A stretch of 64,000 nucleotides of DNA from a virus. Every line of letters starts with the position of its first letter. Positions within the stretch are counted from its first letter, which is position 1. Below are positions 34,254 to 57,205 of this stretch, one piece after another. The stretch covers positions 17,868 through 81,867 of the IMG/VR virus record IMGVR_UViG_3300021137_000006; one strand, written 5' to 3'. Both the position numbers and the translations under genes were made by a program. The notes beneath the pieces were generated by a model that did not search any database, was not told where the DNA came from, and worked only from the letters and a program-made list of their open reading frames with translations.

Positions 34254-34739
34254 ATGTTCACCTTCTTTCGCACCTTACTTGAAACACTTGAGGATACCCG
34301 CAAAACTGGTCACTATGTGGCTGCTAAAGTATCAAAGCAGACCACAGCTGACTTAAAAAAGTGGTGCAAAGAGAATAAAGTACCGACGTCGAAAGACTTT
34401 TTCGATAACTTGCATATCACGATCTGCTATTCGACAAAAGTTTTCCCAATTGACGAGAATGATACGATCGATGACTTGTCGGACTGGAATGTGGATCCGA
34501 TCGCTTTTGCAGAGTTCGGAAAAGATAATGATAAAAAATACTTGGTTCTAAAAGTTAAGAGCAACCAATGCGCTAGTCGTTGGCAACATTACCTCGATCA
34601 GGGCGCGAGTTACGACTTTGATGATTATCTTCCGCATATTTCACTTGCTCTGAACTTTAAGGGCGACCTCAATTCACTTGATCTGGATACCTTGCCAAAA
34701 CTAGTACTAGATAAAGAGTACTACGAAAAACTTTCCTAA
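34254..34739 (+). CDS. 2H phosphoesterase, Acb1-like anti-CBASS enzyme
   Basis: 161 residues with the two H-x-(T/S) motifs of the 2H superfamily: LHITICYS (H54, T56) and YLPHISLAL (H128, S130). The surrounding pattern GHYVAAKVSKQTTADLKKWC and SYDFDDYLPHISL resembles T4 gp57B/Acb1, which hydrolyses the cyclic oligonucleotide signals of CBASS defence. A LigT-type RNA 2'-5' phosphodiesterase is the alternative. Oddly for an anti-defence gene it has a late-type motif 19 nt upstream and a leading MFTFFRTLLETLE that could be a capsid-targeting peptide, so it may be delivered with the DNA. Confidence 0.7.
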   Translation: MFTFFRTLLETLEDTRKTGHYVAAKVSKQTTADLKKWCKENKVPTSKDFFDNLHITICYSTKVFPIDENDTIDDLSDWNVDPIAFAEFGKDNDKKYLVLKVKSNQCASRWQHYLDQGASYDFDDYLPHISLALNFKGDLNSLDLDTLPKLVLDKEYYEKLS

Positions 34740-36748: not shown

Positions 36749-37345
36749 ATGATCACTTTCCCAAAATACCAACCAATCGCCAACGTCGTACTATCTGTGG
36801 ATCTCAACAACGCAGCTACCCAGAATTCTACCGATCTGCTACCGACGATTGGATACATCGGATTTGCTGAACCCCAAGGGGCAAAGGCAGTAATTGAGAT
36901 CGATAGCCAAGGTAAAATTCTTGGTACCAATTCAAAAGCAGCGACAAAGTGGGCAAACGCCAACACCAGGTCGTTACTCTTAATTCACTCTAACCTTGTC
37001 GCAGCGCACGGCCTCCTGCCGGACAATATGACACTAACCCTGGTTGGTTATATTTTTACAGGTTCGCTCACGCTGATCGACGCCCAGCTCGCCATAGACG
37101 GTAAACATAGTGTGTACTGGTTATCAGTCAAAGTACTCAATGAGTTGGTCGTGCGGGTGAGTAAAGTGCAAACTGCATTTGCTGACAACGCACTGTTCAC
37201 TGAAATCAATTTCAACCAACCTGAATTGTTCGTCGAAGCAGCCACTCAAGCTGCAGACGGCGTGCCAATGTTGTGGCAAATCAGTCCCCACACTGAATTT
37301 GCAATCGCTCCTGTGCTACGTGACCCGTACCGCATTGCTTTGTAA
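36749..37345 (+). CDS. Unrecognised beta-rich protein next to PAAR
   Basis: 198 residues with many short strands (NVVLSVDL, AVIEIDSQGKILG, NMTLTLVGYIFTG) and no known motif. It directly precedes the PAAR protein by two bases, so a baseplate or spike-associated role is possible; in T4-like phages the spike tip gene lies among baseplate genes. Confidence 0.55.
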   Translation: MITFPKYQPIANVVLSVDLNNAATQNSTDLLPTIGYIGFAEPQGAKAVIEIDSQGKILGTNSKAATKWANANTRSLLLIHSNLVAAHGLLPDNMTLTLVGYIFTGSLTLIDAQLAIDGKHSVYWLSVKVLNELVVRVSKVQTAFADNALFTEINFNQPELFVEAATQAADGVPMLWQISPHTEFAIAPVLRDPYRIAL

Positions 37346-37347
37346 TC

Positions 37348-37512
37348 ATGCCAGCAGTTGCACGAAAGGGTGATCCGGATTCAAATGGAGACTCGATTAC
37401 ACAGGGCTCTCCATCTGTTTTTGCAAACGGCCAACCTGTTGCACGAAAGGGTGATCCGGATTCAAATGGAGACTCGATTACACAGGGCTCTCCATCTGTT
37501 TTTGCAAACTAG
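37348..37512 (+). CDS. Miniature PAAR-like spike-tip protein made of two identical units
   Basis: 54 residues in two 27-residue halves: each ends VARKGDPDSNGDSITQGSPS then VFAN. This is the PAAR-type repeat (A-R-x-G-D-x-x-x-x-G-x-x-I-x-x-G-S-P-x-V-F-x-N-G) that forms the pointed cap on contractile-tail spikes, such as T4 gp5.4. Known family members are about 90-100 residues, so this is short and could be a truncated yet trimeric tip. The two halves are identical over 72 bases of DNA. It ends directly at a run of three promoters. Confidence 0.7.
   Translation: MPAVARKGDPDSNGDSITQGSPSVFANGQPVARKGDPDSNGDSITQGSPSVFAN
37357..37428 (+). repeat. 72-nt perfect direct repeat, copy 1 (PAAR)
   Basis: Identical to 37438-37509, offset 81 nt, in frame within the PAAR gene. 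Confidence 0.95.
37438..37509 (+). repeat. 72-nt perfect direct repeat, copy 2 (PAAR)
   Basis: Identical to 37357-37428 with no silent change, so the duplication is recent or kept alike by conversion. Confidence 0.95.
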
Positions 37513-37514
37513 CA

Positions 37515-37586
37515 AAACAACCTGTTGACCCACTTTGTGAAATGTGTTACATTAGACAAATCGGGTAGCAGAAAAAGTTAAAAAGA
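37515..37586 (+). repeat. Promoter-bearing direct repeat, copy 1
   Basis: 72 nt, 71 identical to 37594-37665 (difference G/T at 37565/37644). Contains the promoter at 37525-37553. Confidence 0.95.
37525..37553 (+). promoter_or_regulatory. tRNA-cluster promoter P1
   Basis: TTGACC, 17 nt, TACATT. Confidence 0.75.
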
Positions 37587-37967: not shown

Positions 37968-38043
37968 CCCTGTGTAGCTTAATGGCTAGAGCAATCGGCT
38001 TTTACCCGATCAGGTGTCCGTTCGACTCGGATCACAGGGACCA
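37968..38043 (+). tRNA. tRNA-Lys(UUU)
   Basis: Acceptor CCCTGTG/CACAGGG, anticodon loop CTTTTAC in stem ATCGG/CCGAT, CCA encoded. Confidence 0.9.
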
Positions 38044-38058
38044 AAACTTATTCAATAG

Positions 38059-38271
38059 CTGTGTCCTAATTGTCACAGTATCACGGATACTTGGCGCGGT
38101 CGAAACAAACCCGCCAATAATGGAAAAAACGTTGTACAGGATAAAACGTTGTTGCAGCACTTACAAGACGCTCCTAACATCCGTCAAGGATTACTAAGAG
38201 CCGGATTAGCAGCAAAAGGCGCTAACTACGAAAGAGCGAAACAGTTATTGAATAAGAATTTGGGAGCGTAG
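38059..38271 (+). pseudogene. 3' remnant of an HNH homing endonuclease
   Basis: An open frame without a start codon, beginning right after a stop at 38056-38058. It reads LCPNCHSITDTWRGRNKPAN then, near the end, APNIRQGLLRAGLAAKGANY and ERAKQLLN: the last HNH strand (compare LCPNCHSLT in the intact gene at 43005) plus the C-terminal helix-turn-helix-like module of phage HNH enzymes. The upstream half is lost. Its stop TAG is formed by U8-A9-G10 of the next tRNA. Confidence 0.8.
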
Positions 38272-38339
38272 CTCAACTGGCTAGCAGCAATCGGCTCTTA
38301 CCCGATAGGTTCTGGGTTCAAATCCCAGTGCTCCCACCA
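38262..38339 (+). tRNA. tRNA-Lys(CUU)
   Basis: Acceptor GGGAGCG/TGCTCCC, loop CTCTTAC in stem ATCGG/CCGAT, CCA encoded. Shares its anticodon stem with tRNA-Lys(UUU). Its first ten bases are also the end of the HNH remnant. Confidence 0.9.
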
Positions 38340-38348
38340 CAACATTAT

Positions 38349-38423
38349 GCCCGGACAGCTCATCGGTAGAGCACTCGACTGATAATCGAGCGGTGATTGG
38401 TTCGATTCCAATTCCGGGCACCA
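38349..38423 (+). tRNA. tRNA-Ile(GAU), first copy
   Basis: Acceptor GCCCGGA/TCCGGGC, loop CTGATAA in stem CTCGA/TCGAG, canonical T loop, CCA encoded. Confidence 0.9.
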
Positions 38424-38428
38424 ATTTT

Positions 38429-38503
38429 AGCCGCGTAACTCAGAGGCAGAGTAATCCCTTGATAAGGGATAAGTCGACATTTCGAAATTGTCCGTGGCTA
38501 CCA
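38429..38503 (+). tRNA. tRNA-Ile(GAU)-like, second copy
   Basis: Acceptor AGCCGCG/CGTGGCT, loop TTGATAA in stem ATCCC/GGGAT, CCA encoded. T stem GACAT/TTGTC has U53-U61 instead of the near-universal G-C, a feature shared with the tRNA at 43728. Confidence 0.75.
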
Positions 38504-38510
38504 GAAATAT

Positions 38511-38588
38511 ATCACTGTCGTCTAATTGGAATAGGACACTAGACTTTCAATCTAGCAAATGCGGATTCGACTTCCGTCAGTGATACCA
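38511..38588 (+). tRNA. tRNA-Glu(UUC), first copy
   Basis: Acceptor ATCACTG/CAGTGAT, loop CTTTCAA in stem CTAGA/TCTAG, CCA encoded. Confidence 0.88.
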
Positions 38589-38590
38589 TA

Positions 38591-38634
38591 CTTTGTGATC
38601 GTCTATTGGTTAGGAGTTCTAACTCATAAATAGA
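38591..38634 (+). pseudogene. 5' half of a tRNA, probably tRNA-Met(CAU)
   Basis: CTTTGTG-A-TCGTCTATTGGTTAGGA resembles the 5' half of the adjacent tRNA-Glu, followed by an anticodon-type hairpin TCTA...CTCATAA...TAGA with CAU centred. No T arm or acceptor 3' strand follows; instead a homing-gene leader begins. The late motif ATAAATA of that gene lies inside this hairpin. Confidence 0.45.
38626..38632 (+). promoter_or_regulatory. Late promoter of homing gene at 38651
   Basis: ATAAATA, 18 nt before the ATG, with a strong ribosome site AGGAGGA between. Confidence 0.6.
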
Positions 38635-38650
38635 CATAGGAGGACTTTTT

Positions 38651-39331
38651 ATGTCTATGGGTGGTTATCGAGAAGGCTCTGGTAGGAGCAAAACAGGGTA
38701 CTACAATGGAATCTATTGTGGTAGCACTTACGAGTTGTGTTGGGTGATATATTCTATAGATCACGGAATTAACTTTACCCGATTTCCGGGATTATTGGAA
38801 GCTAATGGTGTCCGGTATTATCCAGATTTCCTACTAGGTGACGGTAAGACTATCGTCGAGACGAAAGGGTATGAAGCCCAATTAGCAGTGGATAAGAAAA
38901 CGGCTGTAGCAATTTCTCATGGGTATGTTGTGCAAGTTCTCCGTAAGGATGATCTAAAATACGCTTTCGATTATGTATCTGAAAAGTATGGCACCAAGCG
39001 ATACCACACTTTGTATGATGGATACGCACCGACGTATGACTATATTTGTGATTGTTGTGGACAGCCATTTCGAGTCGATTCTAAAAAGAAAACAGAACGA
39101 AAATTCTGCAATAGAGTATGTGCGGGTAAATTCCGAAAACAACTAATCCTGCAACAAGATGACTGGAGAGACCGAATTTCAGCATCCTTAACGGGACGGA
39201 AGGTTAAGCCGTATCAAAGAAAATATAAACAAAAGTGGATTACTGACGGTAAACTTAATACGAAGATTCAGTTTGATCTTTGTATACCGGATGGATTTCA
39301 CCAAGGGCGAACAAATTCTGTGCAGGACTAA
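38651..39331 (+). CDS. PD-(D/E)XK homing endonuclease (EDxHD/Vsr-like type)
   Basis: 226 residues. The N-terminal third has GGYREGSGRSKTGYYNGIYC, then STYELCWVIYSIDHG-INFTRFPG and RYYPDFLL...TIVETKGY, i.e. P-D...E-x-K, as in I-Bth0305I-type homing enzymes. A zinc finger follows (CDCCGQPF...RKFCNRVCAGKF, about 137-165) and a C-terminal DNA-binding tail with ITDGKLNTKI then LCIPDGFHQGR, a module shared by many T4 homing enzymes. It appears to have landed in a tRNA gene (38591). Confidence 0.85.
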   Translation: MSMGGYREGSGRSKTGYYNGIYCGSTYELCWVIYSIDHGINFTRFPGLLEANGVRYYPDFLLGDGKTIVETKGYEAQLAVDKKTAVAISHGYVVQVLRKDDLKYAFDYVSEKYGTKRYHTLYDGYAPTYDYICDCCGQPFRVDSKKKTERKFCNRVCAGKFRKQLILQQDDWRDRISASLTGRKVKPYQRKYKQKWITDGKLNTKIQFDLCIPDGFHQGRTNSVQD

Positions 39332-39353
39332 ACTCCTCAGCAGTGCCATTTAT

Positions 39354-39428
39354 ATCACGTTGGACTTCTAGTGAGGTCATCTGCCTTTCACGCAGACCAG
39401 ACGAGAGCGTAACTCGTACGTGATGCCA
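39354..39428 (+). tRNA. tRNA-Glu(UUC), second copy
   Basis: Acceptor ATCACGT/ACGTGAT, loop CTTTCAC in stem TCTGC/GCAGA, CCA encoded. The T loop AGCGTAA lacks the TTC signature, so it may be degenerate. Confidence 0.7.
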
Positions 39429-39512
39429 TTTACCGCCCATCCTGTGAAGGACCGGCTTCGTGATGACTCGTTTATTGACCGAGGGATACCAAATAGTCAA
39501 TAAGAATTTTAT

Positions 39513-39590
39513 GGCCTATGAGTCTGCTTGGTGTGGACGCTACCCTGTCACGGTAGAGATAGATCGGTTCAAATCCGATATAGGTCGCCA
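39513..39590 (+). tRNA. tRNA-Asp(GUC), first copy
   Basis: Acceptor GGCCTAT/ATAGGTC, loop CTGTCAC in stem CTACC/GGTAG, T arm ATCGG/CCGAT, discriminator G, CCA encoded. Confidence 0.9.
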
Positions 39591-39610
39591 ATTATGTTCG
39601 GGATCGAATC

Positions 39611-39617
39611 ATAAATA
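39611..39617 (+). promoter_or_regulatory. Late promoter of HNH gene at 39641
   Basis: ATAAATA, 23 nt before the ATG. Confidence 0.6.
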
Positions 39618-39640
39618 TGTTCGATCACATGGAGTAGTGT

Positions 39641-40054
39641 ATGAAGAAAGTATGTTCTAAATGCCAGCAAGAAAAAGAGCTGTCGGAGTTTAGAAAAGAC
39701 AAATCCCGCAAGGATGGGGTAATGTCAAGCTGCAAACAATGCACTAGACAGTTTTACAAAAGCCAGTATGTGACAAAGTACGGCGACAAATATGCGACTG
39801 CAAACAGAAAGCGTAGAGCTAATCAAGCAGCCATGTTGTACGAATATAAGAGTAAGCAGAAGTGCTTATTTTGTGACGAGCGAGAGCCAGTCTGCTTAGA
39901 GTTCCATCACACCGATCCGTCAATCAAAGATTTTGGAGTCGGTTCGAGCGTGGGACGCAACTGGGAAAAGATCCTCGCAGAGATTGAAAAATGTGTGTGC
40001 CTGTGCAGCAATTGTCACAAAAAGGTACATGCAGGTTTATTAATTATACAGTAG
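39641..40054 (+). CDS. HNH endonuclease with N-terminal zinc finger
   Basis: 137 residues. N-terminal C-x-x-C...C-x-x-C finger (KVCSKCQQEK and SSCKQCTRQF). A second zinc/HNH unit follows: CLFCDEREPVCLEFHHTDPS...CVCLCSNCHKKVHAG, giving the H-H, N and H residues of the HNH active site with zinc cysteines. Small free-standing homing type. The stop codon is inside the acceptor stem of the next tRNA. Confidence 0.85.
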   Translation: MKKVCSKCQQEKELSEFRKDKSRKDGVMSSCKQCTRQFYKSQYVTKYGDKYATANRKRRANQAAMLYEYKSKQKCLFCDEREPVCLEFHHTDPSIKDFGVGSSVGRNWEKILAEIEKCVCLCSNCHKKVHAGLLIIQ

Positions 40055-40123
40055 TAGCATAGCGGCTAATGCACCTCCCTGTCTAGGAGACTACCGCGGG
40101 TTCGAGTCCCGTCTACTGTGCCA
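40048..40123 (+). tRNA. tRNA-Asp(GUC), second copy
   Basis: Acceptor ACAGTAG/CTACTGT, loop CTGTCTA in stem CTCC/GGAG, T arm CGGG/CCCG, discriminator G, CCA encoded. Overlaps the last seven bases of the HNH gene. Confidence 0.85.
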
Positions 40124-40127
40124 AATA

Positions 40128-40200
40128 TGGGTAGCTTAGCATAATGTAAATGCGCTCACGTTGAGTGAGAGATATTGAGCCATCTCAATAGACGCCCCCA
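40128..40200 (+). pseudogene. Fragment of a class II (long variable arm) tRNA
   Basis: D-arm-like start, an anticodon hairpin CTCAC/GTGAG and a variable-arm hairpin TATTGAG-CCAT-CTCAATA, but no T arm or matching 3' acceptor. Looks like a decayed tRNA-Leu or -Ser. Confidence 0.4.
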
Positions 40201-40276
40201 AGTTTAAGGATACGAACAGCAAATCTAAACAATTTGACCTTTTAATTCAAACCTAAAGTGTATCCTGTCTTATTTT

Positions 40277-40352
40277 CCACTTCTAGCTGACAAAGTATTA
40301 GCGCTGGGCTGAAAATCCAGAGATCCTGGGGCGGTACCAGGGGAGTGGGCCA
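40277..40352 (+). tRNA. tRNA-Phe(GAA), first copy
   Basis: Acceptor CCACTTC/GGAGTGG, loop CTGAAAA in stem CTGGG/TCCAG, T stem CCTGG/CCAGG with an atypical loop, CCA encoded. Confidence 0.75.
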
Positions 40353-40359
40353 ATTTTAT

Positions 40360-40435
40360 GCAGCCATAGCTCAGTTAGGAGAGCACCGGATTGAAACCCC
40401 GGGTGTCGCTGGGGCGGATCCAGCTGGTTGCACCA
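40360..40435 (+). tRNA. tRNA-Phe(GAA), second copy
   Basis: Acceptor GCAGCCA/TGGTTGC, loop TTGAAAC in stem CCGGA/CCCGG (one A-C mismatch), CCA encoded. T loop again GGCGG-rich. Confidence 0.75.
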
Positions 40436-40438
40436 TTT

Positions 40439-40446
40439 TATAAATA
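40439..40446 (+). promoter_or_regulatory. Perfect T4-type late promoter
   Basis: TATAAATA, 20 nt before the ATG at 40467. Confidence 0.75.
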
Positions 40447-40466
40447 TACTACCTCAGGAGAGTATT

Positions 40467-40790
40467 ATGAAGAAGATTCTTGTAAGTTTACTATTAGCTG
40501 TCGCAGCAAGTTCCGCATTTGCTGATCGTTGTTGCTACCGAGGTGGTTGGGGTCATGGAGGCGGCTGGATCGGTCCAGTACTCAGTGGTGTCATCGGGTA
40601 TGAAATTGGACAAAGTCAGCGTCAGACGGTACTCGTGCAACAACAACCTGCGTATGTACAACCTGTGTATGTACAACCTGCTCCGATCATTATCACAGAT
40701 CCCAACCAAGTTGTAATCAACGGCAAGCTGTACCGCAAGCAATTGATGAATATCGATGGCGTAGTGCAGGAAGTGCTCGTAGCACAATAA
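40467..40790 (+). CDS. Small exported glycine/tyrosine-rich protein
   Basis: 107 residues from the ATG at 40467 (ribosome site CAGGAGAG). A clear signal peptide KKILVSLLLAVAASSAFA is followed by a Gly/Trp/His-rich stretch (GGWGHGGGWIGP), then YVQP repeats. The C-terminal VVINGKLYRKQLMNIDG segment resembles small bacterial surface/envelope proteins. A late, exported protein could alter the envelope for superinfection exclusion or lysis. It sits alone among tRNAs and may be of host origin. Confidence 0.65.
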   Translation: MKKILVSLLLAVAASSAFADRCCYRGGWGHGGGWIGPVLSGVIGYEIGQSQRQTVLVQQQPAYVQPVYVQPAPIIITDPNQVVINGKLYRKQLMNIDGVVQEVLVAQ

Positions 40791-40795
40791 CCACA

Positions 40796-40870
40796 TGGTT
40801 CGTTAGCTCAATGGTAGAGCACTGCTTTGACTCGGCAGACACAAAGGTTCGATTCCTTTACGATCCACCA
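40796..40870 (+). tRNA. tRNA-Val(GAC)
   Basis: Acceptor TGGTTCG/CGATCCA, loop TTGACTC in stem CTGCT/GGCAG, canonical T arm, CCA encoded. Anticodon call depends on a G-U closing pair. Confidence 0.8.
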
Positions 40871-40877
40871 AACAAAT

Positions 40878-40965
40878 GGAAGGTTAATCTCACTGGGTGA
40901 GACACTGCTTCGAACGCAGTCGGACTCCGCAAGGGGTTAGAGTTCGATCCTCTATCCTTCCTCCA
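40878..40965 (+). tRNA. tRNA-Ser(CGA)
   Basis: 88 nt with a long variable arm; acceptor GGAAGG/CCTTCC, loop TTCGAAC in stem ACTGC/GCAGT, CCA encoded. Confidence 0.88.
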
Positions 40966-40986
40966 ATTTTTACAAAGCATAGAGGT

Positions 40987-41057
40987 GTGACGTTAGTGTA
41001 GCGGCAGCACCCCAGATTGTGATTCTGTTAGTACGGGTTCGACCCCCGTACGTCACC
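40987..41057 (+). tRNA. tRNA-His(GUG)
   Basis: Perfect acceptor GTGACGT/ACGTCAC, loop TTGTGAT in stem CCAGA/TCTG, discriminator C as in tRNA-His. No CCA is encoded, unlike most tRNAs here. Confidence 0.85.
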
Positions 41058-41078
41058 CCTGTGTGCTTTGTAACGTTC

Positions 41079-41155
41079 GGTGCGGTAGTATTATTAGCAA
41101 TACGCGGTCCTCATAAGGCTGAATGAAGGGAGTGCAAATCTCCCCCGCACCACCA
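41079..41155 (+). tRNA. tRNA with CAU anticodon (Met or Ile2)
   Basis: Perfect acceptor GGTGCGG/CCGCACC, loop CTCATAA in stem CGGTC/GGCTG, CCA encoded. Initiator, elongator and lysidine-modified Ile cannot be separated by eye. Confidence 0.88.
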
Positions 41156-41161
41156 AATCTG

Positions 41162-41190
41162 TTGACCTTTTTGGAAATAGGGTAGATAAT
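41162..41190 (+). promoter_or_regulatory. Early promoter of gene at 41219
   Basis: TTGACC, 17 nt, GATAAT. The 34 nt from inside the spacer to the ribosome site are identical to those at 46977-47010. Confidence 0.85.
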
Positions 41191-41218
41191 TACCGTATTG
41201 ACAAACAAAGGACACAAA

Positions 41219-41407
41219 ATGAAGATCACAATCCACACTTGCCCTTACAAAGGTTTCCGCCACATCACCGTTGGTGGAGATAGTTCATCTTACACTGCTA
41301 ACCTGTACGGAAAGTGCTGGAGCGTGTTTTACAAGGGACAGTTGATTGGTGCTACTCCGAAAGTGCGTCGGATTGAATTCATCATTGCTGAAAGTTTGAA
41401 GCCGTGA
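41219..41407 (+). CDS. Small early protein
   Basis: 62 residues from the ATG at 41219 with ribosome site AAAGGA. Starts MKITIHTCPYKGFRHITVGG. Not recognised. Driven by the same promoter/leader type as the gene at 47016; early small genes of this sort often target host functions. Confidence 0.6.
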   Translation: MKITIHTCPYKGFRHITVGGDSSSYTANLYGKCWSVFYKGQLIGATPKVRRIEFIIAESLKP

Positions 41408-41414
41408 CTAAATA
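41408..41414 (+). promoter_or_regulatory. Late promoter of gene at 41445
   Basis: CTAAATA starting right after the preceding stop codon, 30 nt before the ATG. Confidence 0.55.
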
Positions 41415-41444
41415 CGCTAATACACACAACACGAAGGTATAAAA

Positions 41445-41801
41445 ATGTCCCCAGAACAATTCTTGACGCTGGCTGGTATACCAGTAACAACACAGATCGT
41501 TCGTCGATTGAACGAAGCAGTTAAGTCAGGTGATCAGTTTTCACAATCTAAAGCCAGAGTACTGGCGGTGATTGATACTTTCTACCAACAGTACGGGATC
41601 AAAGGGTATGTGAATAGGTTCTTTGATGCCGAAGCTGCAGCCCAGGGAATATTCTTTAAAGCTGAAGTCGGTAATTATAATCCGGAAGAAGTAGATGTGT
41701 CGGAAGTACTCGATGAGTTGAATAGCATCCCAGGAGTGCATGCTGAGGAGTGTTATACGGCAGATCAAACATATGGAGTAGAGATTACAATTAATCGTTG
41801 A
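41445..41801 (+). CDS. Small late protein with capsid-targeting-like N-terminus
   Basis: 118 residues. The first 25 residues, EQFLTLAGIPVTTQI then VRRLNEA, give a hydrophobic helix with L-A-G and an L-N-E-A site, like the starts at 23985 (MLEIAGM...LTEA) and 45567 (LANMAGV...LKES). The remaining domain has a ferredoxin-like strand pattern (FFKAEVGNYNPEEVDVSEVL, GVEITINR). Function unknown. Confidence 0.55.
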   Translation: MSPEQFLTLAGIPVTTQIVRRLNEAVKSGDQFSQSKARVLAVIDTFYQQYGIKGYVNRFFDAEAAAQGIFFKAEVGNYNPEEVDVSEVLDELNSIPGVHAEECYTADQTYGVEITINR

Positions 41802-41826
41802 CTTGTTTGTAGTGTGGTGAGATAAT
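41798..41826 (+). promoter_or_regulatory. Early promoter giving a leaderless message
   Basis: TTGACT, 17 nt, GATAAT; the ATG at 41833 is only six bases beyond the -10 box. Confidence 0.75.
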
Positions 41827-41832
41827 TATCAC

Positions 41833-42009
41833 ATGAATAAATTTAAAGCACTTGCAGCGAAGTATGATTTCACCTTGTGGTACGATCGTAGTTTGAAATT
41901 GTGGTCACTGACTGATAATACAGGTCAGAAAGATGCGTATTACTTCACCAAGCACTTGATAGTGTCTGTGTCACTGGAGGCATTCGAACATTATCACTTC
42001 AATGACTAG
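41833..42009 (+). CDS. Small protein from a leaderless early message
   Basis: 58 residues: MNKFKALAAKYDFTLWYDRS at the start, FEHYHFND at the end. No ribosome site is possible because the promoter abuts the start. It overlaps the next gene by eight bases. Not recognised. Confidence 0.6.
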   Translation: MNKFKALAAKYDFTLWYDRSLKLWSLTDNTGQKDAYYFTKHLIVSVSLEAFEHYHFND

Positions 42010-42226
42010 CATGCTGGTTAAAACTTACAAAAATGTGTACAGCTCTGATCTACGAGCGCGAGCAGGGCATCCGCCTGATGTGCTGCAATTGCGAATCGTG
42101 GACGAAACTGGAGTCCTCCATTGGGTTGGAGAGCATGCGCTGCCAGAAGACGATGACGCATATCGTGCGAATCTTAAGCGAGTGAGAGCTCGGTTGGTGT
42201 ACGCTGCGAAAAAACATGGGTATTGA
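42002..42226 (+). CDS. Small early protein
   Basis: 74 residues; a second ATG at 42011 is an alternative start. Arg-rich C-terminal helix (YRANLKRVRARLVYAAKKHG). Coupled to the leaderless gene before it. Not recognised. Confidence 0.55.
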   Translation: MTSMLVKTYKNVYSSDLRARAGHPPDVLQLRIVDETGVLHWVGEHALPEDDDAYRANLKRVRARLVYAAKKHGY

Positions 42227-42265
42227 CCAGTTGCTAACTTAATCAATTACAACGACTATTGACAT

Positions 42266-42520
42266 ATGATATACAAACAAACGGTTATCGCAATTTCTAT
42301 TCACCAAACGGGTGTGAATCCAATCTTCGGTGAAGGTGCCACGCACGTTAAGTTGTGTGATGATGCAGCTGGGTATTTCATTGAGTTGAGTCAGGCAGAC
42401 GAATCTGCTGAAAATGGTGTAGTGCGATTTGACCCAACGGAATGGGAAGCAATCAACGCTGCAGTGAAGACGCTGCTAAATAGCGCACCAGTTGCAGACA
42501 ACTTTGCTAGTGTTGTATAA
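42266..42520 (+). CDS. Unrecognised small protein
   Basis: 84 residues, mixed alpha/beta, with VRFDPTEWEAINAAVKTLL near the end. Likely in the same early unit as the two genes before it. Confidence 0.55.
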   Translation: MIYKQTVIAISIHQTGVNPIFGEGATHVKLCDDAAGYFIELSQADESAENGVVRFDPTEWEAINAAVKTLLNSAPVADNFASVV

Positions 42521-42530
42521 TAAGAATATT

Positions 42531-42618
42531 GGGGTGTGGAGGTACTGGGTACCAAGCGGCTTTGAATACCGTTCCACTGTTAATAGCGGTGATAGTTCGA
42601 TTCTATCACGCCCCGCCA
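42531..42618 (+). tRNA. tRNA-Ser(UGA)
   Basis: 88 nt with a long variable arm; acceptor GGGGTGT/ACGCCCC, loop TTTGAAT in stem GCGGC/ACCGT, CCA encoded. Confidence 0.82.
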
Positions 42619-42624
42619 AGATTT

Positions 42625-42716
42625 GGAAGATTTTCTAGTCAGGGATACTAGCCGCGCTTGGAAAGCACGTGGAGCGTCAATGTGCGCCGGAGGTTCGAAT
42701 CCTCAGTCTTCCGCCA
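42625..42716 (+). tRNA. tRNA-Ser(GGA)
   Basis: 92 nt with a long variable arm; acceptor GGAAGAT/GTCTTCC, loop TTGGAAA in stem CGCGC/GCACG (one mismatch), CCA encoded. Confidence 0.82.
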
Positions 42717-42724
42717 TGAAATGT

Positions 42725-42841
42725 AGTTGCTCCTGCTGGGCCAGGAGTTCCCACCGAGGGTAGTATGCTATTCGATTCAGCTGAAAGTATGGTACACATA
42801 AATCCGCACGGTTCGGAAAGGTTCGAATCCTTTAGCAACTT
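42725..42841 (+). pseudogene. Aberrant 117-nt tRNA-like element
   Basis: Perfect 7-bp acceptor AGTTGCT/AGCAACT and perfect T arm AAAGG-TTCGAAT-CCTTT, but about 40 nt too long in the middle, with no clear anticodon stem; no CCA. It could be a tRNA carrying an insert, as at 43412, or a decayed gene. Confidence 0.5.
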
Positions 42842-42849
42842 CGTATATT

Positions 42850-42924
42850 GCCCTTGAAGTGTAGACAGCGACACACTTGTTTCGTAATCAAGAGAGTGGT
42901 GGGCAGGTCACCACAAGGGCACCA
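42850..42924 (+). tRNA. tRNA-Thr(CGU)
   Basis: Perfect acceptor GCCCTTG/CAAGGGC, loop TTCGTAA in stem CTTGT/TCAAG, CCA encoded. T loop atypical. Confidence 0.78.
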
Positions 42925-43004
42925 TTTAAAAGAGTTTTCGTCCCCTGCGAGAATTCTTCTAAATGGTCGGATTTTTCAGACTATATACATTAAGCGGATA
43001 CAGA

Positions 43005-43421
43005 ATGGCGTACAGCAAGCACAATATAACATGCTTACACTGTGGCACGGAGCGAGAACAGAGCAAACACTCAGCAAGAGGAAAGTTCTGTTCAAACAGG
43101 TGTCAAGTTGATTACCAGTACAACCAGTTTATACAGCGTTGGTTAGCTGGCGAGGAGACTGGTTTGAGTGGACAGCGTGGAATAAGTTTGCACGTTCGAC
43201 GTTTTGTATTTGAAAAGTTTGATAGCAAGTGTGTTGAGTGTGGCTGGAATCAAAAGCACCCAACAGATGGTCGAATTCCACTGGAAGTAGATCACATAGA
43301 TGGTAACTGGATGAATACGACGGAATCTAATTTGCGGTTGTTGTGTCCAAACTGTCATTCACTTACGATAACTTATAAGTCGAGAAATCGACAGAGTAGT
43401 AGAAAGTACAAGCCCGATTAG
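43005..43421 (+). CDS. HNH homing endonuclease (intact)
   Basis: 138 residues from the ATG at 43005. N-terminal zinc finger (CLHCGTEREQSKHSARGKFC then SNRC), a helix pair, then a zinc-HNH core: KCVECGWNQKH, PLEVDHIDGNWMNT and LRLLCPNCHSLT. The D-H...N...H set of an HNH enzyme is complete. The ORF closes at T-A-G formed by U8-A9-G10 of the next tRNA. The remnant at 38059 is a relative of its C-terminal half. Confidence 0.88.
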   Translation: MAYSKHNITCLHCGTEREQSKHSARGKFCSNRCQVDYQYNQFIQRWLAGEETGLSGQRGISLHVRRFVFEKFDSKCVECGWNQKHPTDGRIPLEVDHIDGNWMNTTESNLRLLCPNCHSLTITYKSRNRQSSRKYKPD

Positions 43422-43559
43422 CTCAGGGGTAGAGCAACCGCCTTTTCGGAGAGGATAATGACCTCTCTCCACAGGAGATTCTCACGAGTCTCCTGTACAG
43501 GAGGATAACTCCAAAAGGTAAGCGGTAGGTCGTCTGTTCGAATCAGACATTGGGCACCA
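43412..43559 (+). tRNA. tRNA-Thr(UGU) interrupted by a 73-nt insert in the anticodon
   Basis: All tRNA parts are intact: acceptor GCCCGAT/ATTGGGC, D arm GCTC/GAGC, anticodon stem ACCGC/GCGGT, T arm GTCTG-TTCGAAT-CAGAC, CCA. The anticodon loop, however, is 80 nt (43442-43521). Joining CTT (to 43444) to GTAA (from 43518) restores CTTGTAA, the standard tRNA-Thr(UGU) loop. The insert (43445-43517) folds into three hairpins and its ends continue the stem (CTTTT/AAAAG). Exact junctions are ambiguous by a few bases; UUU (Lys) or GGU (Thr) are alternative outcomes. Confidence 0.75.
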
Positions 43560-43566
43560 AAATTTA

Positions 43567-43641
43567 GCTCCTAAAGTGTAGATGGCGACACACTGGTTTT
43601 GTAATCCAGAAAGCGAGGTTCAAGTCCTCGTGGGAGCACCA
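43567..43641 (+). tRNA. tRNA-Thr(UGU), uninterrupted
   Basis: Acceptor GCTCCTA/TGGGAGC, loop TTTGTAA in stem CTGGT/TCCAG, canonical T arm, CCA encoded. It follows the interrupted tRNA by seven bases. Confidence 0.88.
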
Positions 43642-43645
43642 TATA

Positions 43646-43721
43646 TGGGTCGTTAGTTCAGCGGTAGAACTCTATCCTTACACGGTAGCTGTCGGCGGTT
43701 CGATCCCGTCACGACCCACCA
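43646..43721 (+). tRNA. tRNA-Val(UAC), first copy
   Basis: Acceptor TGGGTCG/CGACCCA, loop CTTACAC in stem CTATC/GGTAG, CCA encoded. Confidence 0.9.
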
Positions 43722-43727
43722 CCTTAT

Positions 43728-43802
43728 ACGCGGGTAACTCAGAGGCAGAGTAACTCTGTTACATAGAGAAGGCCGGGATTTCGAAATTCCCCCTGCGTAC
43801 CA
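43728..43802 (+). tRNA. tRNA-Val(UAC)-like, second copy
   Basis: Acceptor ACGCGGG/CCTGCGT, loop GTTACAT in stem CTCT/AGAG, CCA encoded. D arm TAACTCAGAGGCAGAGTAA and the U53-U61 T stem are shared with the tRNA at 38429. Confidence 0.72.
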
Positions 43803-43806
43803 ATTT

Positions 43807-43881
43807 GCCCATTTATTTCAGTGGTAGACAGCTTTCTTGGTAAGAAAGAGGACATTGGTTCAATTCCAATAATGGGCACCA
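43807..43881 (+). tRNA. tRNA-Thr(GGU)
   Basis: Acceptor GCCCATT/AATGGGC, loop TTGGTAA in stem CTTTC/GAAAG, CCA encoded. Confidence 0.9.
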
Positions 43882-43925
43882 CTTATTGCCACCAATTCCC
43901 AGCAATCTCTGCTGTAAGTAACTAC

Positions 43926-44639
43926 ATGGCAAAAATCTTCTTACGCTTACCATCCACGTCTTCAGTGGACCTACGACCAGATGCTGATTATGTTATCAAT
44001 CAGCAATCGTACGGCTCTTGTACAGCAAACGCAGGGTGCGCGTGCATGGAAATTATGTACAAGCAACGTAATGATGTGTCGATCGAATTTAGTAGATTGT
44101 TTTTATACTTCTGTGAGCGGACATTAGAAGGTGCACCCGACGACGATGTCGGTGCACCGGCTGTTCTAATTGGAGAATCTTTACTAACTTACGGAGTGTG
44201 CAAAGAAGAATTGTGGCAATATAATAAAGAGAATATGTTCGATACTCCACCCCAAGCTGCGTTTGATCAAGCACTCTCTTATAGAATTGCTGGATATCGA
44301 CTATTAGATGGAGCCTTACTTACCGCAATTAAAACCAGTTTGAATAACGGTGTCCCAATTTTGCTTAGTTTAATTGTAACAACGTCATTCAGAACCTTGA
44401 CGGGACCCTGGAAGACTCATAACTGGAACACTACAATAACACGTAGTAATAAAGTACTCGGTGGACACGAAGTTGCGATCATTGGATATGATGATGCTGC
44501 TAAGCGACTGTTAATTGAAAATTCCTGGGGACGCGGATGGGGAGATGGTGGATTCGGCGGCATTCGATATAGCGCTATCGATTCTCAACTATTCGGAGAC
44601 CTGTGGGTCCTACAACCAAATTTTGCGACTGTATCATAA
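43926..44639 (+). CDS. Papain-like (C1 family) cysteine peptidase
   Basis: 237 residues from the ATG at 43926; a longer frame would begin inside tRNA-Thr and is rejected. The C1 catalytic set is present: Q26 and C32 in NQQSYGSCTAN, H181 in GGHEVAIIGYDD, N199 in LIENSWGRGWGDGGF. It starts VDLRPDADYVI as in bacterial C1 peptidases without propeptide. Phage C1 peptidases of this kind are seen but their targets are unknown. The last 15 bases overlap tRNA-Arg. Confidence 0.88.
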   Translation: MAKIFLRLPSTSSVDLRPDADYVINQQSYGSCTANAGCACMEIMYKQRNDVSIEFSRLFLYFCERTLEGAPDDDVGAPAVLIGESLLTYGVCKEELWQYNKENMFDTPPQAAFDQALSYRIAGYRLLDGALLTAIKTSLNNGVPILLSLIVTTSFRTLTGPWKTHNWNTTITRSNKVLGGHEVAIIGYDDAAKRLLIENSWGRGWGDGGFGGIRYSAIDSQLFGDLWVLQPNFATVS

Positions 44640-44701
44640 CTGGATAATGTCCAACCTTGCGAGGGTTGATTATGGAGGTTCAAGTCCTCTCGGTCGCACC
44701 A
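44625..44701 (+). tRNA. tRNA-Arg(GCG)
   Basis: Acceptor GCGACTG/CGGTCGC, loop TTGCGAG in stem CAACC/GGTTG, canonical T arm, CCA encoded. Its 5' end lies within the peptidase gene. Confidence 0.85.
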
Positions 44702-44708
44702 CTAAATA
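44702..44708 (+). promoter_or_regulatory. Late-type motif between tRNAs
   Basis: CTAAATA directly after tRNA-Arg and 25 nt before tRNA-Ser(GCU); it could give late transcription of that tRNA and of bL33. Confidence 0.4.
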
Positions 44709-44732
44709 AACACACGCAATTTTGATAGTTTT

Positions 44733-44818
44733 GGAGAAGTGGCGAAATGGTAGCCGCACTTGTTTGCTAAACAAGCACTGGAAACGGTGTGCAGGTTCAA
44801 GTCCTGTCTTCTCCGCCA
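44733..44818 (+). tRNA. tRNA-Ser(GCU)
   Basis: 86 nt with a long variable arm; perfect acceptor GGAGAAG/CTTCTCC, loop TTGCTAA in stem CTTGT/ACAAG, CCA encoded. Confidence 0.92.
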
Positions 44819-44843
44819 ATTTATACAACTAGGAGCTTAACAC

Positions 44844-45014
44844 ATGGCACGCAAGCACGGTAGAGAACTAATTAAACTAGAGTCCACATCCGGTTCAGGA
44901 CACTTCTACACAACTGACAAGAATAAGAAGACTACTCCGGGGAAACTGGAGTTCAACCTGTACGACCCAATCATTCGCAAGCACGTCGCTTACAAAGAAG
45001 TTAAGCTCAAATAA
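44844..45014 (+). CDS. rpmG: Ribosomal protein bL33
   Basis: 56 residues (bacterial bL33 is about 55). [20 protein letters not shown] and [11 protein letters not shown] are the bL33 signatures, matching the E. coli form (IKLVSSAGTGHFYTTTKNK ... YKEAKIK) and closer still to betaproteobacterial ones that have KLEST and RKHVAYKE-x-KLK. It lacks the zinc cysteines of the C+ form. bL33 sits at the E site of the large subunit; a phage copy could replace the host protein in ribosomes. Ribosome site TAGGAGCTT. It stands between tRNA genes. Confidence 0.92.
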
Positions 45015-45021
45015 CAGAATT

Positions 45022-45125
45022 TTGTAGTTAAGTCGGTCAGACTTTGGTAAAGGCGATGCGGAATGGTTTAGGCCACGTTAAATATCGAAGCGCATCTTAA
45101 TGATAATGTGTGCAGCCTACTACAA
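45022..45125 (+). ncRNA. Structured RNA of unknown class
   Basis: 104 nt closed by a perfect 7-bp stem TTGTAGT/ACTACAA (45022-45028 with 45119-45125). Inside: hairpin AAGTC-GGTCA-GACTT (45030-45044), then helix AGGC/GCCT (45051-45054 with 45115-45118) that stacks on the closing stem, continued by GATGCG/CGCATC (45055-45060 with 45091-45096) and a small TGG/CCA hairpin. The first half mimics a tRNA (U8-A9, D-like arm), but there is no anticodon arm, T arm or CCA. Confidence 0.5.
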
Positions 45126-45129
45126 ATAT

Positions 45130-45207
45130 GCGTCCGTAGCTTAACTGGATAAAGCACTGGAATTCGAATCCAGTAGATTGCACGTTCAAGTCGTGTCGGG
45201 CGCACCA
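45130..45207 (+). tRNA. tRNA-Arg(UCG)
   Basis: Acceptor GCGTCCG/CGGGCGC, loop ATTCGAA in stem CTGGA/TCCAG, T arm CACG/CGTG, CCA encoded. Last tRNA of the cluster. Confidence 0.85.
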
Positions 45208-53137: not shown

Positions 53138-53731
53138 ATGATGAACATTCATACTAAAATCCTGACCTTAGATATGGCAGGTGTACCTCGGAAATGGGAG
53201 GACGTTGAGAAAGTAGTTGAATACTACGCAAAGGATAAGATTGCTTGGGATCTCGGCGACTTTGAATACACTATGCGTGGTGGTATTCAGCGCGTATCCG
53301 GACTACAAAGTGAAATTACTGTTCGCAGTATCGTCGCTGTGAAAGGTACTGAGCATCTTGTTGGCAAAGAACGTACGCCACCTCTGTCGCGTCGCATGTT
53401 GTTTTCGCGTGACCGTTGCGTCTGTGCATACTGTGGGCAGAAGTATGATGAACGCAACCTCGAACAAGAGCACGTTATCCCACGTGCTCAAGGTGGCCGC
53501 TCGTCTTGGACCAACCTTGTTACTGCTTGCTACCACTGCAATGACTTGAAGGGTAACCGCACTCCAGAACAGGCTCAAATGCCACTGGTCTATCTGCCTT
53601 ACATTCCAAACCGGTATGAAGAACTGTTGCTGTCTAACCGCCACATTCTGGCTGACCAAATGGAGCTGCTAATGAGCAAGGCTAAGCACTTCAAGATGAT
53701 GCCACGAGGGGAATTGCATGTCCGTCAATAA
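53138..53731 (+). CDS. HNH endonuclease (McrA/bacterial type)
   Basis: 197 residues; an ATG at 53141 is an alternative start. The core is [20 protein letters not shown] then RAQGG...[16 protein letters not shown], a zinc-HNH unit with the H and N residues in place. It lacks the extra DNA-binding modules of the homing genes here and resembles standard bacterial HNH proteins, so it may be a phage nuclease for host DNA or for packaging rather than a homing gene. Its end overlaps the NADAR gene by 14 bases. Confidence 0.82.
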
Positions 53732-54260
53732 AAACTTTGCGAATGTTTTTGAAAACATGCAACAAATTGTCGAAGACCGTCAAAACGGTGTTCGAATGAC
53801 TGACAGTGTTATCATTTTTGATGACAAGTTTAATCCATTAAGCGTTGGGTATCAATGTGACATAGTATTGGAAGGGGTGATGTTTGCATCAGCGGATCAC
53901 GCTCTCCAATATTTGCGTGCAATGGCATTTCAGGACCAAGCAGCGATGCGACAAATAGCGTCCGCTGCAACTGCAAAACAAGCAAAGACTGTCCTAATTA
54001 ATCGATTCAGCAACAACACGTGGCGTAAGTTTGAGCATCGTTCGATGCAGGTAGTGATTGGTGCTAAAGTCAAACAAAACAAGACAGCGCGAGAGCACTT
54101 AAAGATGACTGGGACGAAAAAGTTGGTGTACGCATCCAAACACGACACGTATTTCGGTTGTGGACTTGCTATGAACGACGACAATGTGTTATATCCTCAA
54201 TTTTGGGCTGGTCAAAACCAACTTGGTCATATTCTTGAGCAGTATCGCAAAGTCCTGTAA
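53718..54260 (+). CDS. NADAR-domain (YbiA-like) protein
   Basis: 180 residues. The family pattern is visible: [32 protein letters not shown]...M...A-K-V-K-Q-N, and the C-terminal [13 protein letters not shown] ... [17 protein letters not shown] enzymes cleave N-glycosidic bonds of ADP-ribose compounds, and some remove ADP-ribose from guanine in DNA; phage copies have been reported to neutralise DarT-type toxins. That function here is inference. An N-terminal 45-residue extension is specific. Confidence 0.82.
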
Positions 54261-56337: not shown

Positions 56338-56396
56338 TAGCACACATACTTTATAAAATAGACAATTGGTTCTTATTAGTATTCACGGAATTGAAA

Positions 56397-56786
56397 ATGA
56401 CAATATACCACAAAGATAGTACTCTTCCTCGAAATGGGGAGATTTTTGTGTTTGGTAGTAATTTCCCGAGGGGAATTCACGGCGCAGGCGCTGCAAAAGC
56501 TGCTCTGCAATTTGGAGCAAAACACGGACAAGGTGTTGGTCTTGTGGGAAATACATACGCAATTCCCACAAAAGACGGTAACATACAAACCTTGCCGTTG
56601 GTTGATGTCCAACATCATATTGCTGCGTTTATTGCATATGCTGAAGCTACTCCCGACAAACAGTATTTTCTTACAGCTGTGGGGTGTGGATTAGCAGGCT
56701 TCGTTCATAGTCAAATCGCTCCCCTGTTTAGCCCTCCGCTACCGAATGCTAGCTATCCTGATACTTGGATGAAGTACCTAGAATGA
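56397..56786 (+). CDS. Macro-like phage protein (A1S_2505 type)
   Basis: 129 residues from the ATG at 56397. FVFGSNFPRGIHGAGAAKAA, GVGLVGNTYAIPTKDG and AVGCGLAGF-x-x-x-x-I-A-P-L-F match a family of small proteins seen in phages and bacteria that look like a nucleotide-binding (macro-like) fold. I know no proven activity. Its four-base overlap with smpB (ATGA) couples the two. With NADAR it may belong to ADP-ribose chemistry; that is speculative. Confidence 0.6.
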   Translation: MTIYHKDSTLPRNGEIFVFGSNFPRGIHGAGAAKAALQFGAKHGQGVGLVGNTYAIPTKDGNIQTLPLVDVQHHIAAFIAYAEATPDKQYFLTAVGCGLAGFVHSQIAPLFSPPLPNASYPDTWMKYLE

Positions 56787-57205
56787 CACAACTTCGCTCT
56801 ACTCCAATTGGACTCGATTACGAAATTCTCGAGCGCATTACTGCTGGTCTTAAACTGACTGGAGAGCAAACCAAAGCGATTGCGGAAAATCAATATGACA
56901 TTCGTGGCGCCCGTGCTGCACAAACCCCCGATGGGTTTTGCATAATTGGGCTGCAGTTTCGTAGTGTAACTGAGAGTGTTAAAGCGCTACTTAACAAAAA
57001 TGAAATCGATCGACTATCTGGGTTGATAACACAACGTGGATTAACGGTAATGGTAGAATCAGTTGTTCACATTCGTGGGAAATTTAAAGTTGTATTGGCA
57101 ACCTGCAAAGGCAAGACCAAATTCGACAAACGTGAAGATCTCAAAAATGCGGATATTGATAAACGGTTGCGTAGAGTTGTAAAATCTCAGCAGCTTTTTG
57201 AATAA
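56783..57205 (+). CDS. smpB: SmpB-like tmRNA-binding protein
   Basis: 140 residues from the ATG at 56783. It follows SmpB: an oligonucleotide-binding barrel start (IGLDYEILERITAGLKLTGE-Q), N-E-I-D-R-L-S-G in place of the bacterial K-x-E-I-x-x-L-x-G, then GKFKVVLATCKGKTKFDKRE and a basic tail DIDKRLRRVVKS, the part that folds as a helix in the ribosomal mRNA channel. Host SmpB (about 160 residues) delivers tmRNA to stalled ribosomes. The phage tail is about 20 residues shorter. No tmRNA gene was seen in the window. Confidence 0.85.
   Translation: MTQLRSTPIGLDYEILERITAGLKLTGEQTKAIAENQYDIRGARAAQTPDGFCIIGLQFRSVTESVKALLNKNEIDRLSGLITQRGLTVMVESVVHIRGKFKVVLATCKGKTKFDKREDLKNADIDKRLRRVVKSQQLFE

Follow-up and report, generated by a model that had tools for sequence, protein, structure and literature searches.

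Locus and gene neighbourhood

The window, as we call the whole 64,000-base stretch analysed, runs from base 17868 to base 81867 of a virus record that is 81,867 bases long. Its smpB-like gene lies on the plus strand at 56783..57205, stop codon included, and encodes 140 residues from an ATG start. The gene immediately upstream (56391..56786, plus strand) belongs to phrog_2072, has no assigned function, and overlaps the smpB start by ATGA. Because of this overlap, the two genes are likely to be translationally coupled. A cluster of at least 20 tRNA genes occupies 37968..45207 on the same strand, in which the tRNA/tmRNA searches found no tmRNA. A NADAR-domain protein (53718-54260; PF08719, E 9.4e-27) is encoded a few genes upstream of smpB and may be connected with ADP-ribose chemistry and phage-host conflict. 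Positions 34254-34736 encode a homologue of the anti-CBASS protein Acb1 (PF23474, E 3.8e-25).

The record is a fragment of a jumbo myovirus genome and encodes a tail sheath, a head-tail adaptor, a DNA polymerase, and a ribonucleotide reductase. Comparison of the tail sheath and the DNA polymerase places three jumbo phages closest among the named ones: Stenotrophomonas phages CM1 and RAS14 (319 kb) and Xanthomonas phage XacN1 (385 kb). There is one close sister contig, G001 (109,810 bases), in which the genes around smpB follow the same order; the aligned coordinates show that it and the window record together span ca. 148 kb. The relatives suggest a genome of about 320-385 kb, more than half of which would then be unseen. 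Two G001 tRNA genes of 103-105 nt (L011:14247-14349 and L011:745-849) contain extra sequence; they were missed by ARAGORN and score above the Rfam tRNA cut-off. Another G001 tRNA (L010:14979-15052) has a CUA anticodon and resembles an amber suppressor, of which type XacN1 has two.

The gene product is a divergent SmpB

The Pfam family PF01668 matches the gene product over residues 12-134 with an E-value of 7e-20 (71.8 bits against a gathering cut-off of 27), and a phmmer search of PDB sequences returned SmpB chains only. The AlphaFold model (pLDDT 76.8, pTM 0.63) shows an OB-type barrel with flanking helices. All of its 20 best PDB matches are SmpB, with TM-scores of up to 0.72 on the query and 0.80 on the target, and the remaining matches have E-values of 0.12 or above. 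The original prediction had read an SmpB barrel core from the sequence and would have been refuted by a predicted structure unlike that barrel; profile and predicted fold agree with it. The score against TIGR00086 is 69.3 bits, below the equivalog cut-off of 119.1, and the protein is therefore a divergent member of the family.

The SmpBs of the window phage and G001 are 89% identical, compared with 68% for the best DNA polymerase segment. Between the two phages, smpB has a dN/dS of 0.055 and is under strong purifying selection. The Pfam score, the dN/dS, and the fold matches rule out a chance match. The gene product is a real, divergent, and selected phage SmpB.

The tail is complete and the central loop is shortened

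We compared the window SmpB residue by residue with 32 bacterial or plasmid SmpBs and 21 other phage SmpBs. The residue table and the model place the tail that would occupy the decoding centre and mRNA channel at 57122..57202 (plus strand), which comprises F114, the DKR motif, and 23 more residues and is rich in Lys and Arg. The tail begins with KGKTKFDKR, in which an aromatic F stands at the position of E. coli His136. The D-K-R-E noted originally is part of a KGK-aromatic-DKR-E motif (K109-G110-K111 ... F114-D115-K116-R117-E118). Counted from DKR, the tail has 26 residues, compared with 24 in E. coli and 20-26 in the 32 bacterial or plasmid SmpBs. Hence, the original statement that the tail is shorter than in bacteria does not hold; it is full length, and the changes lie in the loop and the N-terminus. 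A helix is predicted for residues 116-138 with low confidence. Aside from KGK, the aromatic residue at 136, and DKR, the protein keeps K143, R153, and K156, as well as Y24, AG, K42, L91, L92, and K124. In E. coli, His136 is the residue that activates EF-Tu and DKR is required for accommodation (PMC4151336); the roles assigned to the E. coli tail residues follow the same work and PMC8363625. L91 and L92 pack against G19 of tmRNA (PMC8363625, PMC4151336).

The central loop comprises residues 55-66 (IGLQFRSVTESV; 56945..56980, plus strand), as delimited by the alignment and the residue table. In the columns of E. coli residues 66 to 88, the window protein has 12 residues, the nearest phage clade 16, and nearly all bacteria 22-23, so the loop of about 22 residues typical of SmpB is missing in this length. 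The N-terminal NK(K/R)A, E40, Y55, R88, and K134 are changed or lost. The protein is short because of its 12-residue loop and the missing N-terminal motif. Y55 stacks under the resume codon (PMC8363625), and the loop presumably touches the tRNA-like domain and aids alanylation and EF-Tu activation (PMC4131195). The SmpBs of hemoplasmas, Carsonella, and Hodgkinia are without this loop (PMC4131195). Since some accepted bacterial SmpBs thus also lack it, the short loop lowers the certainty of function, not that of homology.

The nearest SmpB relatives are accompanied by a permuted tmRNA

Six IMG/VR phage SmpBs (L062, L063, L065, L066, L067, and L069, from records G020, G021, G022, G023, G028, and G029) are 33-37% identical to that of the window, and the window and sister SmpBs join them with a tree support of 100/100. 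The window SmpB sits on a very long stem of 3.4 changes per column. The whole group has in common a KAIA motif, a shortened loop, GKFK, and a C-terminal VKSQ. The tail sheaths of G020 and G023 are 46% and 43% identical to that of the window, which indicates related myoviruses.

A permuted two-piece tmRNA is present in six of six records of these relatives. It lies just downstream of smpB in most of them (L063-L068, G023), and its tags include ANDSQFALAA, ANDESYALAA, and ANDETPYALAA. In the 385-kb G020, the tmRNA (149181-149384) and smpB (163691-164104) are ca. 14 kb apart, and the tmRNA sits in a tRNA-rich region, as in XacN1. The G022 tmRNA scores below the RF04321 cut-off (37 bits, E 2.5e-7) and is supported by ARAGORN. 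A pattern of the G020 type, searched for in viral contigs, recovered G020 itself only. The permuted tmRNAs of G020 (L170:1345-1735) and G022 (L067:2404-2874) have unusually long predicted tags of 24 and 32 residues, which end in AFA rather than ALAA and exceed the tags of close relatives by ca. 14-22 codons.

Of the named phages with a tmRNA, the nearest is XacN1 (AP018399.1), which has a permuted tmRNA (RF04321, 123 bits) with the tag ANANTFDYALAA. It occurs in two copies within the terminal repeats (37231-37530, L188; 356026-356325, L189), near two tRNAs of the amber-suppressor type. The stretch of AP018399.1 that we viewed has no tmRNA annotation, and the main text of the XacN1 paper (PMC5852040) does not mention one. 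Two profiles detected no SmpB in XacN1, and RAS14 and CM1 yielded neither SmpB nor tmRNA. Because XacN1 has the RNA with no SmpB by these profiles, the two parts appear separable in these phages.

More widely, SmpB matches were found in 61 of 50,697 catalogued phage records, including 15 Lak phages, five phages of 634-735 kb, and, beside prophages, at least some host DNA. About two dozen further IMG/VR contigs carry SmpB. The claim that SmpB is uncommon in phages therefore stands as to rarity in the catalogue; SmpB and tmRNA in huge phages have nonetheless been known since 2020 (Al-Shayeb et al.; PMC7162821). Other huge phages, namely Lak and LR756504 together with several IMG/VR contigs, combine a full-loop SmpB with a standard tmRNA. 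A further case of SmpB on mobile elements is the smpB of large plasmids (L183, L184) from Variovorax and Pseudomonas sp. Leaf58.

Search for a tmRNA in the window record and the sister contig

The searches combined ARAGORN, the full set of Rfam families at gathering score, RF00023, RF04321, and an nhmmer profile built from tmRNAs of related phages. Neither the 81,867-base record nor the 109.8-kb G001 yielded a tmRNA in any form, tRNA clusters included. The window is thus without a visible tmRNA, as originally observed, and so is the rest of the record, itself a fragment of the genome that the original prediction had proposed to search. Given that ca. 148 kb is covered of an expected 320-385 kb, this result does not demonstrate absence from the phage. 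A typical permuted tmRNA would have shown up, since that of XacN1 scores 123 bits with RF04321; RF00023 alone underrates such RNAs and gives it 33 bits. A leave-one-out test of the nhmmer profile returned the related tmRNAs at 30 (G020) to 244 bits, and that of XacN1 at only 14.6. A strongly diverged tmRNA in the record or G001 could escape these searches.

The remaining weak matches in the record and G001 are tRNA T-arms or very short fragments. The weak RF00023 match at 38262-38339 of the window proved to be a tRNA-Lys; in G001, the weak matches to this family either fall on tRNAs or are fragments. The nhmmer search also picked up orphan T-arms in G001 (L011:12833, L012:1810, and L011:11854), which were read as tRNAs missed by Rfam or ARAGORN. 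ARAGORN with relaxed scoring gave hundreds of false tmRNAs and was uninformative.

A probable role in trans-translation

The gene probably encodes a functional SmpB that serves trans-translation with a tmRNA, either the phage's own from elsewhere in its genome or the host's. SmpB assists in releasing stuck ribosomes, and as the closest viral relatives also carry its partner tmRNA, the phage copy most likely sustains this rescue in infected cells instead of working by itself. This reading is supported by the ancestry shared with tmRNA-linked SmpBs, the intact tail, and the purifying selection. Against it stand the searches of ca. 148 kb that found no tmRNA, the lost tmRNA-facing elements, the long stem, and the missed equivalog cut-off. 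The gene shares its ancestry with the set of smpB and permuted tmRNA of the jumbo myovirus clade. In the proposed mechanism, its product would attach, during infection, to the tRNA-like half of a tmRNA; this RNA would most likely be encoded in the unsequenced part of the phage genome and otherwise be supplied by the host. Stalled ribosomes would take up the intact basic tail in their vacant mRNA channel, which would allow trans-translation. Ribosomes may thereby be kept free while mRNAs are cut during infection, which would benefit the phage. The original prediction had offered three roles on the basis of a short tail, and this basis is wrong. Two of the roles, upkeep of trans-translation and service to a phage tmRNA that lies beyond the window, are preferred in view of the permuted tmRNA present in every nearest-clade record examined and in XacN1. 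The third, a decoy, has gained no positive evidence but keeps some probability: half of the central loop, NKKA, and Y55 are lost, and the decoding-centre tail is intact.

An SmpB that is independent of tmRNA or inhibitory is rather unlikely. Its tail would fill the vacant A site and mRNA channel, or else the protein would compete with host SmpB, so that host trans-translation is blocked or ribosomes are marked for another rescue step. The loss of the loop, NKKA, Y55, and R88 alongside an intact tail and purifying selection fits this reading, as does the outcome of the tmRNA searches in the window record and G001. There are also cellular parallels, in that loop loss preceded tmRNA loss in hemoplasmas and the smpB of Carsonella stays constrained without a tmRNA gene (PMC4131195). 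However, the genome is sampled only in part, and interference with host rescue has no direct evidence. In the nearest clade, the loop is already reduced to 16 residues, R45 is changed, and G38 is mostly changed, yet the tmRNAs of these phages have tag frames. Likewise, several huge-phage SmpBs without E31 share their genome with a tmRNA. In the stronger form of this idea, the SmpB of this lineage would have evolved to bind the ribosomal A site or mRNA channel by itself, without tmRNA, and would stop or divert ribosome rescue in the host. It draws on the loss of half of the loop, NKKA, and the resume-codon residue while the decoding-centre tail is preserved, and we judge it quite unlikely.

It is improbable that the phage is without a tmRNA and supplies SmpB alone, maintaining or boosting the host tmRNA. 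Such a phage would be the mirror image of XacN1, whose tmRNA without a detected SmpB speaks for this reading; the lack of detectable SmpB and tmRNA in RAS14 and CM1 is in line with it, but all nearest SmpB carriers also have tmRNA. Moreover, the window SmpB has diverged strongly from its bacterial counterparts, which is easier to reconcile with co-evolution with a partner that has itself diverged than with use of the host tmRNA. That the gene is a functionless passenger, either decaying or acquired from a host, is hardly credible. The long branch and the loss of otherwise conserved residues might point that way, but this reading is already contradicted by the selection signal (dN/dS 0.055, with identity to the sister above that of DNA polymerase), the intact frame, and the conserved position in G001.

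The presence of tmRNA and SmpB in huge phages had been established, but it was unclear how the two parts travel together. The analysis points to a jumbo myovirus clade with cassettes of smpB and permuted tmRNA, and to an SmpB that retains half of the central loop. The relatives form a series with both parts, tmRNA only (XacN1), or SmpB only as far as seen (the window phage). Together with the graded loop lengths, these one-part relatives give a ready-made series in which to ask which SmpB elements the tmRNA partnership needs, and this comparative pattern is a more useful outcome than a single divergent SmpB. The unannotated tmRNA of the cultivated XacN1 makes phage-encoded trans-translation testable.

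Comparison with known SmpB systems

The closest counterparts are the jumbo-phage SmpBs of the six IMG/VR records, which share with the window protein the 100/100 clade, KAIA, the shortened loop, GKFK, and VKSQ. They differ in having a loop of 16 residues, in keeping NKKA and R88, and in being accompanied by a permuted tmRNA. XacN1 resembles the window phage in its large tRNA cluster and ranks, in tail sheath and DNA polymerase, among the three named phages closest to it; unlike the window phage as far as seen, it has a permuted tmRNA and no detectable SmpB. The SmpBs of Lak and other huge phages (PMC7162821) are also phage-encoded, in very large genomes and often with a tmRNA elsewhere in the genome. 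In contrast to the window SmpB, they fall in a separate clade that includes Bacteroides SmpB, have a full-length loop, and go with a standard one-piece tmRNA where one was found.

Bacterial SmpBs (PF01668, TIGR00086; E. coli and Thermus) agree with the window protein in predicted fold, in the order of elements, in the KGK-aromatic-DKR start and the length of the tail, and at the positions L91/L92 and K124. Their loop has 22-23 residues instead of 12, and the window protein departs from them in NK(K/R)A, E40, Y55, R88, and K134 and falls below their equivalog cut-off. The SmpBs of hemoplasmas, Carsonella, and Hodgkinia have lost the loop, of which the window protein retains 12 residues, and one hemoplasma subclade has lost tmRNA too (PMC4131195). 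These organisms are cellular with reduced genomes, and the tail is lost in Carsonella (PMC4131195) whereas that of the window SmpB is full.
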